DNA of 64,000 nt, taken from Micromonospora gifhornensis. GTDB lineage: Bacteria; Actinomycetota; Actinomycetes; Mycobacteriales; Micromonosporaceae. The stretch lies in NCBI RefSeq assembly GCF_016863515.1, contig NZ_BOPA01000028.1:1-64000 (forward strand), written 5' to 3'. Every line of letters starts with the position of its first letter. Positions within the stretch are counted from its first letter, which is position 1. Both the position numbers and the translations under genes were made by a program. The notes under the pieces were generated by a model. The model had not been told where the DNA came from and did not search any database. It saw only the letters and a program-made list of their open reading frames with translations. Positions 11,457 to 48,470 of this stretch are shown piece after piece.

Positions 11457-12284
11457 GTGAGTGGGCAGGCCCTACCGTACGGACACCAGTGCTGGGCCTA
11501 CGACGATCCCGCCGGCTTCACCCCCCGGGCGGAGGACTTCCTGCGCTCCGGCCTCGCTGCCGGCGAGCAGGTCTGGTACGTCGTCGCCGGCAGCGAGGCC
11601 GGAGCGGTCCGGGACCGGTGGCGCGATCTGGATCTGTTCGCCGAGGCGCTGTCCTCCGGTGCCGCCGAGGTACTCACCCTCGACGCGGCCTACTCCGGCG
11701 TCGAGGTGATCGACCCGGCCGGCCAGGTGTCGGCGTACCAGATGGCCACCCGGATGGCGCTCGCCGCCGGCTACAGCGGCCTGCGGGTGGCCGCGGCCTG
11801 CACGGATCTGGTCCGTACGCCGGCTCAGCGGGCGGTGTTCGCCAGCTACGAGCAGCAGATCAACCGGATGATGCGGGGCGAGGCGTTCCAGGGCATGTGC
11901 GGGTACCACCGGCCGACGTTGGGTGATCGGGCGGTCGCCGAGCTGGCCTGTCTGCACCCGGAGCACAACGTCACCGACCTGCTGTTCCGGTTGTACGCGC
12001 CGACGGCCCACCAGGGTCACGCCGTGCTCGTCGGGGAACTCGACCCGGCCAACCACGATCTGTTCCGCGCCGCGCTGGAGCATTCCGAGCTGCGCCCGGT
12101 CGACGATGAGTTGATACTGGATGCAAGTGGGCTCCGCTTTCTCGATCACCGTACGCTGGTCCACCTGAGTGAGTACGCCCAGCAACGGGAGGCGAGACTG
12201 GTGCTGCGCGGCTGCTCTGCCGGCACCGTACGGCTCGCCGCCCTGCTGGATCTGCCTGGCGTGAGTATGGAGGTGACCCGGTGA
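11457..12284 (+). CDS. MEDS-domain protein with C-terminal STAS domain (anti-anti-sigma type)
   Basis: A 275-residue two-domain protein. Residues about 1-175 form a MEDS (DcmR sensory) domain: GHQCWAYDDPAGFTPRAEDFLRSGLAAGEQVWYV, then later VSAYQMATRMALAAGYSGLRVAAACTDLV. The last roughly 90 residues form a STAS fold (AVLVGELDPANHDLFRAAL, LILDASGLRFLDHRTLVHLSEYA), as in anti-sigma-factor antagonists; in this fold a Ser or Thr after the D/A-S-G-L strand is phosphorylated. The start is GTG 11457. Its stop overlaps the next gene by 4 bases (GTGA). The pair looks like a partner-switching module in which both members carry the same sensor domain. Confidence 0.82.
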   Translation: MSGQALPYGHQCWAYDDPAGFTPRAEDFLRSGLAAGEQVWYVVAGSEAGAVRDRWRDLDLFAEALSSGAAEVLTLDAAYSGVEVIDPAGQVSAYQMATRMALAAGYSGLRVAAACTDLVRTPAQRAVFASYEQQINRMMRGEAFQGMCGYHRPTLGDRAVAELACLHPEHNVTDLLFRLYAPTAHQGHAVLVGELDPANHDLFRAALEHSELRPVDDELILDASGLRFLDHRTLVHLSEYAQQREARLVLRGCSAGTVRLAALLDLPGVSMEVTR

Positions 12285-21860: not shown

Positions 21861-22358
21861 GTGCCGAGTCTCGCGTTCTCCCGTCCACTGTGGTCGGTGA
21901 CGCGCTGCCCGCTGGCGGATCTGACCCGCCTGGCGCTGACGGCACTCATCCTGGCCGTCGGCCTCGGCGGCGTCACGGCCGCCGGCCTGCCGGACGGCAC
22001 AGCAGACCTCCCGGCCGCCCCACCCGCCGCCGCTGTGTCCAGCCGCGCCGGCGACGTGACCGCCCCAGCCTTCCGGCCCGGCAACAACGAGTCAGCGCAA
22101 CGTGTGGAGCCGGCGCGCACCCGGCCCGGGAACGACGAGTCGACGCTCAACTCGTCCCGAAACGAGTCAGCGCTGCCCTCCTCCTGGAACGAGTCGGCGC
22201 TCGTCTCGCCCGTGAGCGCTGTGCATGCCGCAGCCGCGGTGCCGCACTCCGAGCGCACCGACGCCGGGGCCGTCGCCCCCGTCAGCACCCGGCCTGCCGC
22301 CGTACGCCTCGCCGCCGGTCCCGGTGAACCGACCCGGCGCGGCCCTCCGACCGCCTGA
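21861..22358 (+). CDS. hypothetical protein with Asn-Glu-Ser repeats
   Basis: A possible 165-residue exported protein that I do not recognise. A hydrophobic stretch (LTRLALTALILAVGLGGVTAAG) could be a signal or anchor. After it come four copies of a short motif ending in N-[ND]-E-S-[AT] or N-E-S-A-L (PGNNESAQR, PGNDESTLN, SRNESALPS, SWNESALVS) at 16-27 residue spacing or less, in an Ala/Pro-rich background. Start GTG 21861 has no clear ribosome binding site, and ATG 21831 is an alternative. Composition is not strongly gene-like, so it may be non-coding. Confidence 0.4.
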   Translation: MPSLAFSRPLWSVTRCPLADLTRLALTALILAVGLGGVTAAGLPDGTADLPAAPPAAAVSSRAGDVTAPAFRPGNNESAQRVEPARTRPGNDESTLNSSRNESALPSSWNESALVSPVSAVHAAAAVPHSERTDAGAVAPVSTRPAAVRLAAGPGEPTRRGPPTA

Positions 22359-22562
22359 CCTGGGCAGGCTCACGACCACTGGCTGGCTTTGCGCCCTCTC
22401 CTGGCCGGGCCGGGCTCGCACCACCTGACGGAGTCGGCACCCACACGCCACCCGCCGGTGAGGCCCCCTCCCGACCACGACCAAGGTCACGGTCACGGGT
22501 TGCGGCCCTGTTCCTCCGTTTCCCAGCACAGTTCGACGAACCCCATCCGCCACGAGGTGCTG

Positions 22563-23384
22563 ATGATGCAGATCGCTCTCTCCGCCGTCCTGCCCGACGT
22601 GTCCCGGGCCGCCGTGATCTGGCTGAGCCTGTTGGGCATCGTCGTACTCGCCGTCTCCGGCCTGCTGCTGCGTCCCCGGCGACTTCGGTTCGACGTGGGT
22701 GCCCGGATCCGGGAAGCTGCCCTGCCGACCCCGCCGGAGGAGCGGGACGAGGATCGCTGGGCGGAAGAGGTCATGGTGGCCGCCGACCGCGCGGAGGCGA
22801 CGGCTCGCCGCCGACGCGACGAATGGCTCGCCGCACAGGACGAGGCCGAGCAGGCGTGGGAGGCGTACCAGGCGGCGGAGGCGGACGTACGCCGGTTGGC
22901 CGAAGCCGCGAACATGCCACTGCCGCACACCCCACGCACCCCGGCCGAGTACGCCGACCGGGAGCGCTGGCTGCACCGGGCGGTGCTGGAGGCGTACTGG
23001 CGGCGGGAACTGTCGGTGGAGCAGCTCAGCGATGTCTTCGCGCACCGCGGCTGGGACCCCCGCCTGCACCCGGTCCAGCAGGAGTTGGTGCTACGCCGGG
23101 CGATACGTGACCACCTGTTCGCCCAACAGCGGGTGGCCCGGGAACGGGAGCAGGAAGCCTGGCACGCCGCCGAGGTCGCCGCCGCAGCCGCCCGCAACCT
23201 GCGAGCCGAAACCACCACCGCCCTCCTGACAGCCGAACAACACGGCTCCCTCCTCCCCCTCACCCCCCTCCCCGACCCCACCCCACCACCCACTCCGCCC
23301 ACCACCACCGAACACCCCAACCCCGAACAAACCCGGGAAATCCCCCCCAACCCCATAGCCCGCCCCCCAGCCCCCGCCTACTGA
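22563..23384 (+). CDS. membrane-anchored coiled-coil hypothetical protein with Pro-rich tail
   Basis: A 273-residue protein of unknown function. One N-terminal transmembrane helix (AAVIWLSLLGIVVLAVSGLLL) with a following RPRR implies a cytoplasmic body. Residues about 55-230 are charged and helical (ARRRRDEWLAAQDEAEQAWEAYQAAEADVRRLAEA...), including WLHRAVLEAYWRRELSVEQL. The last roughly 45 residues are Pro/Thr-rich (PDPTPPPTPPTTTEHPNPEQ) and coincide with the start of a C-rich DNA tract that runs on past the stop codon, so the tail may be a by-product of that tract. Start ATG 22563; ATG 22566 is also possible. Confidence 0.72.
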   Translation: MMQIALSAVLPDVSRAAVIWLSLLGIVVLAVSGLLLRPRRLRFDVGARIREAALPTPPEERDEDRWAEEVMVAADRAEATARRRRDEWLAAQDEAEQAWEAYQAAEADVRRLAEAANMPLPHTPRTPAEYADRERWLHRAVLEAYWRRELSVEQLSDVFAHRGWDPRLHPVQQELVLRRAIRDHLFAQQRVAREREQEAWHAAEVAAAAARNLRAETTTALLTAEQHGSLLPLTPLPDPTPPPTPPTTTEHPNPEQTREIPPNPIARPPAPAY

Positions 23385-23513
23385 CCCACCCCAGCCCTCC
23401 ACCCCGCCTTCCCTCCACCCCAGCCTCACCACCCAGCCACCCACCCCACCGCGCCCAGCCTGAGCAAGCGCCAAGGCACCGTTGACGCCCCCACCCGCCA
23501 ACGCCCACCAGCC

Positions 23514-23579
23514 CGCGTTGATCAAGAGGTTTTGGTCGGGAATCGTGCTGAGGCAGACCAAAACCTCTTGATCAACGCG
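23514..23579. repeat. 24-bp perfect hairpin inside a C-rich/G-rich composite element
   Basis: A perfect 24-base inverted repeat (23514-23537 with 23556-23579, 18-base loop). The inner arm is GATCAAGAGGTTTTGGTC. The 300-base gene-free stretch around it (23385-23684) is C-rich before the hairpin and G-rich after it. It is the first of three such loci in the window; the other two are near 38.3 and 48.4 kb. Confidence 0.92.
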
Positions 23580-23684
23580 AAGGGCCGGGGGGTGGGGAAG
23601 GCCGGGCGAAGGCGGAGCGGGGTGGGACGGGGGTGTTGGGGGGAGGGTGGGTGGGTAGGACCTCGCGGACGCGAGGAGGGCGAC

Positions 23685-24866
23685 GTGGTCGCAGCGGGGG
23701 GTGCCGGGCGCAGGCCCGATGAGGCGGCGGACCGGGCGGCAGCGGCAGCAGCCGGACCGCGGCAGACGTGGGCGGCCCTGCCCTGGTTGGTACGTACCGC
23801 CGTGGTGTGGAGCGCCTGCCTGGTGGTGATCGCCGCTGGGCTCTACCTGCTGGCGCGGATCACCCTGCTGGTCACACCGCTGGCCATCGCGCTGGCCGCC
23901 ACCTTCTTCCTCGCCGCGCTGCTCGACCCGGTGCAACTCGCGCTCCGCCGGCTGCGGCTGCCCGCCTCGCTGGCCGCCCTGCTCACCGTCCTGCTGCTGC
24001 TCGGCATCCTGGGTGGTCTCGGGGTACTTGTGTGGAACCTGACCGCCAACCAGTTCAGCGAACTGGGTGATGAACTGCAGCAGGGCCTCGGGCGCACCCG
24101 GGATCTGATCACCTCCACCCTGCCGGTGACCGATCAACAGCTCGACGGTCTTCTCGACCAGCTACGCAAGGCGGCCACCGAGCAGGAGGTCGACCCGGTC
24201 GCCAGCGCCCGCACCGTGACCGAGGTGTTCGGCTCCGCCCTGCTCGCCCTGGTGCTGCTGTTCTTCCTGCTCAAGGACGGCCGGGCGATGTGGCACTGGA
24301 CGTTGCGCCGGATGACCGGGCCGAACCGGGACGTCGCCGCCGAGGCGGGCCGGGTCGGTTGGCGCACGCTCGGGTCGTACACCCGAGGCACCATGCTGAT
24401 CGCGGCCATCGACGCGATCGGCATCGGCCTGGCACTGGTCCTTCTCGGCGTACCGTTGGCCTTTCCCCTGGCCTTGATCACGTTCATCGGCGGGTTCGTG
24501 CCGATCATCGGCGCGACCGTGGCCGGCGCGGTCGCGGTGCTGGTGGCGCTCGCCGCGAACGGTCCCACCACGGCGCTGCTCACCCTGGCTGCGGTGATCG
24601 CCGTGCAGCAGATCGAGGGAAACCTGCTGGAACCGCTGGTGATGAAGCGTCAGGTACGGCTGCACCCGGTGGTGATCCTGTTGGCGGTCACCGCCGGCAC
24701 CCTCATCGCCGGCATAGCCGGGGCCTTCGTCGCGGTGCCGATCGCCGCCGTCGCCTGGCGGATCATCGACAGCGTGCAGCGCCAACGAGAGGCCGCCGCA
24801 GCAGCCCGACCGGCACCTCCGGCACCCGACGACCCCCCGGCCACCGCAGATCCCGCACCCGGCTGA
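23685..24866 (+). CDS. AI-2E family transporter (PerM/TqsA-like permease)
   Basis: A 393-residue membrane protein of the AI-2E transporter family with about eight helices. Diagnostic parts are TPLAIALAATFFLAALLDPV, the cytoplasmic helical segment LGDELQQGLGRTRDLITSTLP, ALVLLFFLLKDGRAMW, and the C-terminal GVPLAFPLALITFIGGFVPIIGATVAG and QQIEGNLLEPLVMKRQVRLHPVVILLAV. Members export a range of small molecules; autoinducer export is only shown for some. Start GTG 23685 was chosen because GAGGAGGG lies just upstream; further upstream the frame crosses the repeat element. The tail is Ala/Pro-rich. Confidence 0.9.
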   Translation: MVAAGGAGRRPDEAADRAAAAAAGPRQTWAALPWLVRTAVVWSACLVVIAAGLYLLARITLLVTPLAIALAATFFLAALLDPVQLALRRLRLPASLAALLTVLLLLGILGGLGVLVWNLTANQFSELGDELQQGLGRTRDLITSTLPVTDQQLDGLLDQLRKAATEQEVDPVASARTVTEVFGSALLALVLLFFLLKDGRAMWHWTLRRMTGPNRDVAAEAGRVGWRTLGSYTRGTMLIAAIDAIGIGLALVLLGVPLAFPLALITFIGGFVPIIGATVAGAVAVLVALAANGPTTALLTLAAVIAVQQIEGNLLEPLVMKRQVRLHPVVILLAVTAGTLIAGIAGAFVAVPIAAVAWRIIDSVQRQREAAAAARPAPPAPDDPPATADPAPG

Positions 24867-24946
24867 GACGCCCGCACTCCCGTCGCCGCGCAAGCGTCAA
24901 GTGGGACGACACGCTGTCGACGACGGGCACGGGGGCCGCGATGGTG

Positions 24947-25615
24947 TCAGGCCGGGGAGAGCTGAGGGTGCAGGTAGTCGTGGAACCAGTCGGCCGCAGC
25001 CTCGGCCACCTGTTCCAGGGTGCCGGGCTCCTCGAAGAGGTGCGTCGCACCGGGGATCACCCGCAGGTCGGCCGGGGCCGTCAGCTGGTCCAGCGCGTGC
25101 CGGTTGAGCGAGATCACCGGCTCGTCGAGGCCGCCGACGAGCAGCAGGGTGGGGGCGCGCACCTGGCCGAGCGCGGCTCCCGCCAGATCCGGACGACCGC
25201 CTCGGGACACCACGGCGTACACCTGCTCGGGCCGTCGGGCCGCCGCGACGAGGGCGGCGGCGGCACCCGTACTGGCACCGAAGATGCCGATCCGGGCCGT
25301 GTCGAAGGGCTGCTCCGAGGCCAGCCAGTCCACGATCGTGGCCAGTCGGCGGGACAGCAGGTCGATGTCGAAGCGTAGTTCGGCGGTGACGGCGTCCGCC
25401 TCGGCCTCCGCCGGGGTGAGCAGGTCGACAAGTACGGTGCCGAGCCCGCCCGCACTCAGCGACCTGGCCACGGCGACGTTGCGGGGACTGTGCCGCGAAC
25501 TTCCGCTACCGTGCGCGAACAGCACCGCGCCCACCGGCTGGGCCGGAATCAGCAGGTCCGCCGGCAGGTCGGCCCCACCAGCCGGGATCGTCACCGCGTT
25601 GCCCCGAACGTCCAT
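24947..25615 (-). CDS. alpha/beta hydrolase, dienelactone hydrolase-like
   Basis: A 222-residue single-domain alpha/beta hydrolase. The oxyanion region is LFAHGSGSSRHSPRN, the nucleophile elbow is GASTGAAAA (Ser), the acid is in LLLVGGLDEPV (Asp), and the base is in PGATHLFEEPG (His). The GSGSSRHSPRN loop is typical of a DLH-like subgroup often fused to phosphoribosyltransferases in actinobacteria. Start ATG 25615 lies 6 bases from GGGAGG; ATG 25621 is too close to it. The substrate is unknown. Confidence 0.85.
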   Translation of the reverse strand: MDVRGNAVTIPAGGADLPADLLIPAQPVGAVLFAHGSGSSRHSPRNVAVARSLSAGGLGTVLVDLLTPAEAEADAVTAELRFDIDLLSRRLATIVDWLASEQPFDTARIGIFGASTGAAAALVAAARRPEQVYAVVSRGGRPDLAGAALGQVRAPTLLLVGGLDEPVISLNRHALDQLTAPADLRVIPGATHLFEEPGTLEQVAEAAADWFHDYLHPQLSPA

Positions 25616-38238: not shown

Positions 38239-38314
38239 CGTCGATCTTGCACTTCTGGTCGCCGATTCCACCCGCTACACCCCTTATGCCCCGACCAGAA
38301 CTCCATGATCGACG
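38239..38314. repeat. 23-bp hairpin inside a C-rich/G-rich composite element
   Basis: Arms 38239-38261 and 38292-38314 match at 20 of 23 positions with a 30-base loop. The arm contains GATCTTGCACTTCTGGTC. In the 475-base gene-free region 38042-38516, the stretch before it is C-rich and the stretch after it G-rich. It lies between the divergent sdaA and PspC genes. Beyond this and a ribosome binding site (GAGGGGAA, about 38500) I see nothing else there. Confidence 0.88.
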
Positions 38315-38751: not shown

Positions 38752-38880
38752 AGGCGCCCACCCGCAGGGTGCCCACCCGCGAGGCACCCACCCGCAGGGC
38801 ACGAACACGCGGAGCACGAACACGCGGAGCACGAACACGCGGGGCAGGAACACGCGGGGGCACGAACACGCGGGGCACGA
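38752..38880. repeat. two adjoining families of 15-base tandem repeats
   Basis: Three units of GGCGCCCACCCGCAG type (38752-38796) are followed by five units of GCACGAACACGCGGA type (38799-38874, one unit 16 bases). Because 15 is divisible by three, all frames stay open across it, giving meaningless repetitive peptides. It sits just downstream of the PspC gene in the 311-base gap 38724-39034. Confidence 0.9.
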
Positions 38881-38912
38881 GCAACTTCGGGGAAAGTGCC
38901 GCCAAACGGGGA

Positions 38913-41020: not shown

Positions 41021-41051
41021 CTGTCTCTCCTCGATGCTGGGCCGGGCCGAC

Positions 41052-41115
41052 CGACGTCGGGACGGCCGGTCGACGTCGGGACGGCCGGTCGACGTCGGGA
41101 CGGCCGGTCGACGTC
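41052..41115. repeat. 19-base tandem repeat, about 3.4 copies
   Basis: Three perfect copies of CGACGTCGGGACGGCCGGT (41052-41108) and 7 more bases fill the gap between the aldose epimerase stop and the nitroreductase start. Each unit has the palindromes GACGTC and CCGG. It would be transcribed in the nitroreductase leader. Confidence 0.95.
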
Positions 41116-48400: not shown

Positions 48401-48470
48401 CGATCTTGCACTTCTTGTCGCGACAAAGACGGCAATCTGGGGCATCTATGCGACCAGAAGTGCAAGATCG
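48401..48470. repeat. 21-bp hairpin inside a C-rich/G-rich composite element
   Basis: Arms 48401-48421 and 48450-48470 are complementary at 20 of 21 positions, loop 28 bases. The right arm contains GACCAGAAGTGCAAGATC, the same core as the hairpin at 38239-38314. In the 331-base gap 48231-48561, about 165 C-rich bases precede it and a G-rich stretch follows into the thpR gene end. Confidence 0.92.

Follow-up and report, generated by a model that had tools for sequence, protein, structure and literature searches.

In enterobacteria, REP and BIME sequences are extragenic palindromes located at the 3′ ends of genes. Gene 3′ ends are likewise the location of Rho-dependent terminators, at whose rut sites the inbound RNA is C-rich and G-poor. 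REPINs, in the part of their description drawn on here, are REP doublets that form hairpins and are dispersed through extragenic space, with arms of ∼16–18 bp held at a fixed distance around a variable spacer (PMC3116915). Inverted repeats found downstream of bacterial genes have a spacer of primarily 4–5 bp, according to an excerpt from a survey of spacers of 0–8 bp (PMC13155455), and an account of an Actinoplanes genome mentions, in the portion considered, that stable secondary structures of high G+C content impeded sequencing (PMC3364876). No description of the element reported below was found in the parts of the open-access literature reached by topic searches and by searches with the text of the arm sequence.

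Organization of the window locus

The window is the whole stretch of DNA analyzed, 64,000 nt of contig NZ_BOPA01000028.1 from Micromonospora gifhornensis (the host). An inverted-repeat search of this 64-kb window recovered the perfect 24-bp inverted repeat that had been claimed in an earlier note on the same DNA. The left arm, which consists of CGC followed by GTTGATCAAGAGGTTTTGGTC, occupies positions 23514–23537 on the forward strand, and the right arm, a perfect inverted copy on the reverse strand, positions 23556–23579; they enclose an 18-nt spacer (23538–23555) belonging to the short class of a palindrome family in which spacer length is fixed and spacer sequence is mostly unshared between copies. 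TTGATCAA is present twice in the window, where 0.10 occurrences would be expected, and both copies fall within this element (23514–23579). The C-to-G composition switch that the note described was also found, GC skew passing from −0.80 at 23250–23349 to +0.56 at 23600–23699. The left halo (23230–23513), C-rich and G-poor on the forward strand, extends into the 3′ end of an upstream gene without a Pfam match (22557–23384, forward strand; start approximate; stop codon 23382–23384), so that the C-rich tract begins within the ORF and encodes its Pro-rich tail, in agreement with the note. The right halo (23580–23700), G-rich on the same strand, reaches the start region of a gene for an AI-2E family transporter (23685–24866, forward strand; Pfam, scanned as 23802–24863), which in our reading would start at the GTG at 23685, with AGGAGG at 23674–23679.

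Two long-class members with 32-nt spacers are also present in the window, at 38243–38310 between divergent genes and at 48402–48469 between convergent genes, with flips (right-minus-left GC skew over 100 bp) of 1.19 and 1.26, respectively. Other repeats in the window are 15-bp tandem repeats of the GAGCACGAACACGCG kind (38782–38883), a 19-bp tandem repeat present three times and resembling GGCCGGTCGACGTCGGGAC (41045–41115), and, outside the palindrome family, a G+C-rich inverted repeat whose perfect 23-bp arms lie 17 nt apart (11544–11606).

The core stem of the window element is very stable (−44.7 kcal/mol). The combination of a G+C-rich stem, short loop and U tract that marks intrinsic terminators is not seen, as neither strand has a run of T after the stem of this element and the spacer is 18 nt here and up to 33 nt elsewhere in the family. 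An Rfam scan of positions 22000–25000 gave two matches, both far under their gathering scores (26.1 vs. 230 and 20.2 vs. 70 bits). The flanks had been described as roughly complementary, and the 455-nt fold at the locus does stand well apart from shuffles of the whole sequence (z = −6.2). When shuffles preserved both the local skew and the core, the fold was −216.6 kcal/mol vs. −201.4 ± 5.8 kcal/mol, with 1 of 100 shuffles as good, and the same procedure at 75 family sites gave a mean z of −1.0, with 19 of the 75 below −2. The complementarity of the flanks is thus mostly composition, with a modest excess on top.

The palindrome family of the host genome

A strict two-arm pattern derived from the family is matched by 117 copies in the host genome and its reversed pattern by none; GTTGATCAAGAGGTTT, with up to two mismatches permitted, has 93 matches vs. 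one for its reverse. The arm is also present in relatives. It had been set out beforehand that an arm unique in the genome, or further matches lacking the composition flip, would refute the note; the arm proved repeated in the host and in other Micromonospora, and the other matches do flip. A looser search of 1.43 Mb of host DNA yielded 76 sites, and none with a reversed-sequence control; the 76 are a non-random sample, many short-class loci having been chosen by arm match, and none was selected by flip. Two length classes share the arms GATCNNGNNNTTNNNGTC, a short class with spacers of 18 nt (36 sites) or 19 nt (7), and a long class with spacers of 31 nt (11), 32 nt (19), or 33 nt (3). When spacers of 8–38 nt were permitted with the strict pattern, each of the 65 sites in the host DNA analyzed had a spacer of 18, 19, 31, 32, or 33 nt. 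The sites possess the features by which REPINs are recognized, namely short conserved inverted doublets at a fixed distance in extragenic positions, with 3 of the 76 inside called genes. Among same-class neighbors less than 300 bp apart in the host DNA analyzed, spacing is 135–138 bp in four of six pairs and 112 and 204 bp in the rest; close neighboring elements occur in the host at C3:164929/165064/165202, C1:74268/74403, and C15:57051/57187.

Positions of the arms left free in the search pattern are conserved too. Variable arm positions 9 and 12–14 of the long class pair no better than do the arms of different sites, and its inner positions 22, 23, and 25 are paired at frequencies of 0.15, 0.15, and 0.09 vs. 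0.37, 0.41, and 0.35 expected; pairing below chance implies that the element has a polarity. Co-variation is evident at short-class positions 13–14 (paired 0.81/0.91 vs. 0.54/0.57) and at long-class position 4 (0.85 vs. 0.61). The spacer pairing test, covering the outer nine positions per side, placed the short class mostly near expectation, with position 19 above it (0.58 vs. 0.40). Spacers of different copies are no more similar than column shuffles, save for two short-class pairs (0.89 vs. a maximum of 0.83), and 16 orthologous pairs had an identity of 0.91 in the arms and 0.65 in the spacers.

Long spacers carry A/T at a helical period, the phasing power at 10–10.5 bp being 5.2–7.8 in sets of 19, 11, and 17 elements vs. 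shuffle maxima of 1.7–2.1; in 36 short spacers it is 1.5 vs. ≤1.0. This result is one of non-random A/T positions and does not show bending. Mismatches between orthologous spacers preserve the A/T or G/C class at 67 of 161 positions (42%) vs. 1743 of 4269 (41%) at 600–1200 bp away, a background rate at which no conservation of the phasing between species is evident. Fixed spacer length, A/T phasing, and long-class arms that mostly retain sequence over pairing together suggest double-stranded DNA bound by a putative bending protein more than they suggest an RNA hairpin. The co-varying short-class positions 13–14 and long-class position 4 are hairpin-like and count against this reading. As regards the single large hairpin or cruciform that the earlier note had envisaged at the locus, the mostly unpaired variable arm positions of the long class, the mainly compositional flanks, and the 10-bp A/T phase leave it poorly supported as the biological object. 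Supported from the note's overall reading are the repeated composite of C-rich tract, palindrome, and G-rich tract, the flip at further matches, and the Pro-rich tail.

Placement relative to genes

With genes called by a simple codon-usage caller, 69 of the 76 sites are intergenic, the remainder lying in called genes (3) or at sequence ends (4). The intergenic sites comprise 33 co-directional, 32 convergent, and 4 divergent cases, vs. 294, 40, and 159 among 493 control gaps without a site, and the convergent enrichment is marked (Fisher 5e-14); counted per gap, 27 of 63 are convergent. For co-directional sites the median distance is 40 nt to the stop codon upstream and 140 nt to the start codon that follows, 30 of the 33 sites being nearer the former.

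The C-to-G halo

The flip was measurable at 75 of the 76 host sites, the remaining one being too close to a sequence end; it is above 0 at all 75 and above 0.4 at 69, vs. above 0.4 in 16 of the 493 control gaps (10 of 294 co-directional, 2 of 40 convergent, and 4 of 159 divergent). In the short-class average, the skew of G over C goes from about −0.5 to about +0.5 across the palindrome and decays over 200–300 bp. In six tiled contigs, flips of at least 1.0 numbered 30 in the C-to-G sense, 28 of them at family sites, vs. none in the G-to-C sense; at lower thresholds the C-to-G and G-to-C totals were 38 vs. 9 (0.8) and 74 vs. 52 (0.6), so that both senses are common at 0.6 and the excess emerges above 0.8. 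Eleven C-to-G flips of at least 0.75 lack a family site, and four of these contain a different palindrome scoring ≥12. The 80 non-family intergenic hairpins that score 14–17 have median flips of 0.04, with 5 of 80 above 0.4; the 20 non-family inverted repeats that score ≥18, which include the other odd palindromes that sit at flips, have medians of 0.27 and 0.34, with 5 of 20 above 0.4. Such palindromes, with flips of 0.44–1.1 and arms such as GATCTTGGTACGAAA, GCAACTTCCCTGATGTTGC, and GTTGTGGCAGTGGAGTTGGTC, were noted in the host; non-family examples are at C11:66321, C11:72366, C2:145500, and C21:29796. Further palindrome families may share the halo. Between the members of tandem groups the halo is weak or cancelled, the measuring windows there including the neighboring element.

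The halo is not weaker where a gene begins. Beside co-directional genes, the intergenic 5′ side has an inward-strand skew of −0.61 within 50 bp and the 3′ side one of −0.47; at 0–25/25–50 bp from short-class co-directional sites, skew is +0.58/+0.66 to the right and −0.50/−0.59 to the left. The flip is present at four of four divergent sites, and C-rich, G-poor inbound RNA occurs equally on sides that are not downstream of a gene. A promoter side no weaker than the 3′ side argues against selection on the inbound RNA, and the halo, which is independent of gene direction, is probably an effect at the DNA level. In genes running toward a site, third codon positions have a skew of −0.83 vs. a background of −0.10, and first and second positions −0.39 and −0.49, a pattern that fits a pressure strongest at near-neutral positions. 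Proline makes up 13.2% of the last 20 residues in the 60 genes ending ≤80 bp from a site vs. 7.4% in 1087 others. The inward strand has a small excess of A over T (0.05 to 0.21 in the short class, −0.12 to 0.13 in the long), and AT skew is reversed (−0.12) over the 25 bp nearest to long-class elements.

Selection for G-quadruplexes was rejected as a source of the halo, since motifs occur in 106 of 149 flanks vs. 104.1 on average in block shuffles, and G runs of ≥5 are depleted. As regards replication fork direction, left and right skew did not differ between two chromosome regions, in a weak comparison in which the origin of the relative G219 was not located. Three pattern matches in viral contigs, with flips near 0, were judged to be chance.

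Distribution and divergence in relatives

The strict pattern was detected in 34 of 61 relative genomes, all belonging to the host's genus (34 of its 37 genomes), and in a family-level scan in 24 of 150 genomes and 7 of 44 genera; of the 134 genomes from other genera in that scan, 9 had it. Among the matches listed, most named records belong to Micromonospora and Verrucosispora, and Dactylosporangium is also represented. Strict copies number 100 in G003 and 70 each in G008 and G012. The arms vary between genomes and are largely uniform within one: in the matches listed, GATCAAGGAGTTTGTGTC and close variants characterize G021, and GATCTTGGAGTTGTGGTCC is the arm dialect of genus g66. Such dialects look like sequences read by a trans-acting factor. 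Elements of other species from named records, a few of which are chance matches, have a flip above 0 in 109 of 111 measured cases and above 0.4 in 92 of 111. Measured separately, nine of nine elements in G047 and seven of eight in G021 exceed 0.4. Genus g66 has a weaker halo, in that the flip is above 0 in 19 of 19 regions (1 of 20 having been dropped as too near a sequence end) and above 0.4 in 8 of 19, with a median of 0.39, and faint in G086 (median 0.16; above 0.4 in one of four).

G219, a close relative whose DNA is 91% identical at the one locus tested, has an orthologous region for 35 of 38 host sites examined; 23 retain a family site and 12 lack one under the strict search, and a flip is present in 7 of these 12 and absent in 5. 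The G219 ortholog of the window locus shows a flip, shorter tracts, and a palindrome in degenerate form, and in 28 other orthologs no such element and no flip above 0.38 was detected, a single chance-like match lying elsewhere in L174. At one orthologous place, G219 carries a member of the GATCATGAGGTTGGCGGCA class (flip 1.27) in the position of the host's long-class element (flip 1.03). This third class, which comprises GATCATGAGGTTGGCGGCA and its variants and has a spacer of 19 nt, was observed in G219 at B1:108136, 215589, 286973, and 402250; C21:101880 of the host holds a related, differently spaced palindrome. At C2:216595, one match covers the element in full in G003, G222, and G223, is interrupted in G207, G007, G225, G052, and G001, and gives way in G219 to a clean absence of ∼183 bp; loss of the element in G219 is a plausible interpretation. 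At C3:73002 the palindrome is absent in G219 and a flip of 0.65 persists, and at C3:10490 the two species have an ordinary terminator hairpin in common, with the element present in just one of them.

Directional differences accompany presence and absence. In 15 site comparisons in which one species lacks the element, with flip and no-flip groups pooled, positions with C in the bearer and G in the lacker outnumber the reverse 48:13 at 0–100 bp and 57:24 at 100–200 bp, vs. 38:31 at 200–300 bp and 106:119 at 300–600 bp. The pooled figures avoid the bias of the no-flip group, which was picked by low flip and whose asymmetry is partly by construction; two of the comparisons share one region, and for the group with elements in both species, a regional site of whichever family class was counted. 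Within 100 bp, again pooled, bearer C with lacker T (35:14) and bearer A with lacker G (36:5), as well, run in the same sense. If the element was gained, these would read as C-to-G, C-to-T, and A-to-G changes on the outward strand, a direction that matches the expectation from single-strand exposure. The largest single substitution class is G-to-C on the inward strand, and with C-to-G (outward) as the largest class, deamination alone is insufficient.

Possible explanations

A skew running from −0.5 to +0.5 across an element of 60–70 bp and gone by 200–300 bp indicates that some process treats the two strands differently at fixed sites, with more than 100 such centers per genome and a halo scale of ∼200 bp. 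The explanation preferred here, which we put forward tentatively, is that the elements are sites of a putative protein that would mark gene-end boundaries and be surrounded by an outward, strand-biased substitution halo. Each element would be a dyad-symmetric double-stranded site for this putative sequence-specific protein, which would grip the two conserved arms and bend the spacer, placing the A/T tracts on one helical face. Past the 3′ ends of genes, and especially in convergent gaps, the complex could act as a two-way boundary, either a roadblock to RNA polymerase or a supercoil barrier. The halo would be the trace of a strand-asymmetric substitution process running outward for ∼200 bp on both sides, in which the outward-reading strand would lose C and, more weakly, A, and would gain G; repeated single-strandedness of the outward strand could produce this direction. 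The weaker halo in g66 and G086, the flip seen at some non-family repeats of score ≥18, the predominance of G-to-C on the inward strand, and the weak A-over-T component count against this reading. A more elaborate form, a so far undescribed Micromonosporaceae nucleoprotein boundary system in which arm dialects co-change, a phased and bent spacer lies between transcription units, and an outward mutational halo rewrites synonymous codons and makes protein tails Pro-rich, is rather doubtful.

The placement at gene 3′ ends and in convergent gaps is what would be predicted of a two-way Rho-assisted terminator, in which C-rich, G-poor (rut-like) transcripts arriving from either side would be released at the palindrome and the halo would be selected through the RNA. 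The inbound strand is indeed C-rich, CCCACCC being found within 300 bp of sites 154 times in the inward and once in the outward orientation, and the substitutions deplete this strand of G and T. Of the 24 convergent gaps that contain an element, 1 has a hairpin of score ≥14, vs. 21 of the 84 that contain none (Fisher p = 0.024), and this rarity of ordinary hairpins would also fit a terminator, although the difference is not significant at a score of 12 in convergent gaps (p = 0.087) or over all gaps of 100–450 bp (p = 0.41). A flip equally strong on the downstream 5′ side and present at the divergent sites is difficult to accommodate in such a scheme, as are the non-family hairpins of score 14–17, which mostly lack one, and the terminator hairpin at C3:10490 that both species possess irrespective of the element. 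We consider this explanation unlikely.

A selfish miniature mobile element of the REPIN or MITE kind, tolerated only at gene 3′ ends, would account for dispersed inverted doublets with fixed spacing and some tandem groups, for presence and absence between close species (including the clean difference at C2:216595), and for the two short-class spacer pairs that are more alike than any column shuffle. The remaining spacers are no more alike than such shuffles, however, a family site is kept in 23 of the 35 orthologous regions, E. coli REP-like loci carry no flip, and no match to Y1_Tnp (PF01797, RAYT) was found in the host, with its 117 copies, or in G003, G008, or G012. A mobilizing gene of a kind other than Y1_Tnp could be involved, and the explanation as a whole is improbable.

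Selection for polar DNA is likewise improbable. Under this proposal the outward G-rich GGGTGGG would steer a translocase or helicase off the palindrome, or would mark local outward DNA synthesis. In its favor are the polarity of CCCACCC/GGGTGGG near sites, the concentration of 155 of its 649 occurrences in 1.9% of tiles, and a skew sign, from C-rich to G-rich, that is origin-like; against it, other C-run words are polar as well (CCCTCCC 86:0 and CCCGCCC 145:6) and G-quadruplex motifs stand at the level expected from composition, with long G runs depleted. An ordinary intrinsic terminator hairpin in a stretch skewed by chance would explain the stability of the stem, but is very improbable given arms conserved beyond the search pattern, 117 strict copies, fixed long spacers, and a flip at every measured family site vs. 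above 0.4 at so few non-family hairpins.

Should the more elaborate nucleoprotein boundary system be correct, the family would represent a bacterial insulator-like element bearing its own mutational signature. Identification of the putative protein would bring to light either a new two-way gene boundary of high-GC bacteria or a source of strand-biased mutation that acts locally. For annotation, the halo matters in that it alters codon choice and raises proline in the tails of neighboring proteins.

Comparison with known systems

The family differs from Rho-dependent terminators in that its halo is symmetric and independent of gene direction and its palindrome is conserved in sequence. It also differs from REP-like loci of E. 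coli K-12, for which the median flip was −0.005 and none of 12 loci in 100 kb exceeded 0.4; these 12 were found with a short REP core, and some may be chance. We know of no family that has such a halo and phasing. Like intrinsic terminators the inverted repeat follows stop codons, but its spacers of 18–33 nt, conserved arms, and flip set it apart; most non-family hairpins of the host genome lack the flip. As far as the description drawn on extends, REPINs (PMC3116915) are the nearest known kind: the palindrome family, too, consists of dispersed inverted doublets with conserved arms, fixed spacing, and variable spacers, in several groups per genome, and departs from them in the absence of a Y1/RAYT match in the host, in lacking compensatory pairing in the spacers of the long class, and in having A/T phasing and a C-to-G halo. 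On this basis the family is filed as a variant of the dispersed extragenic palindromes.
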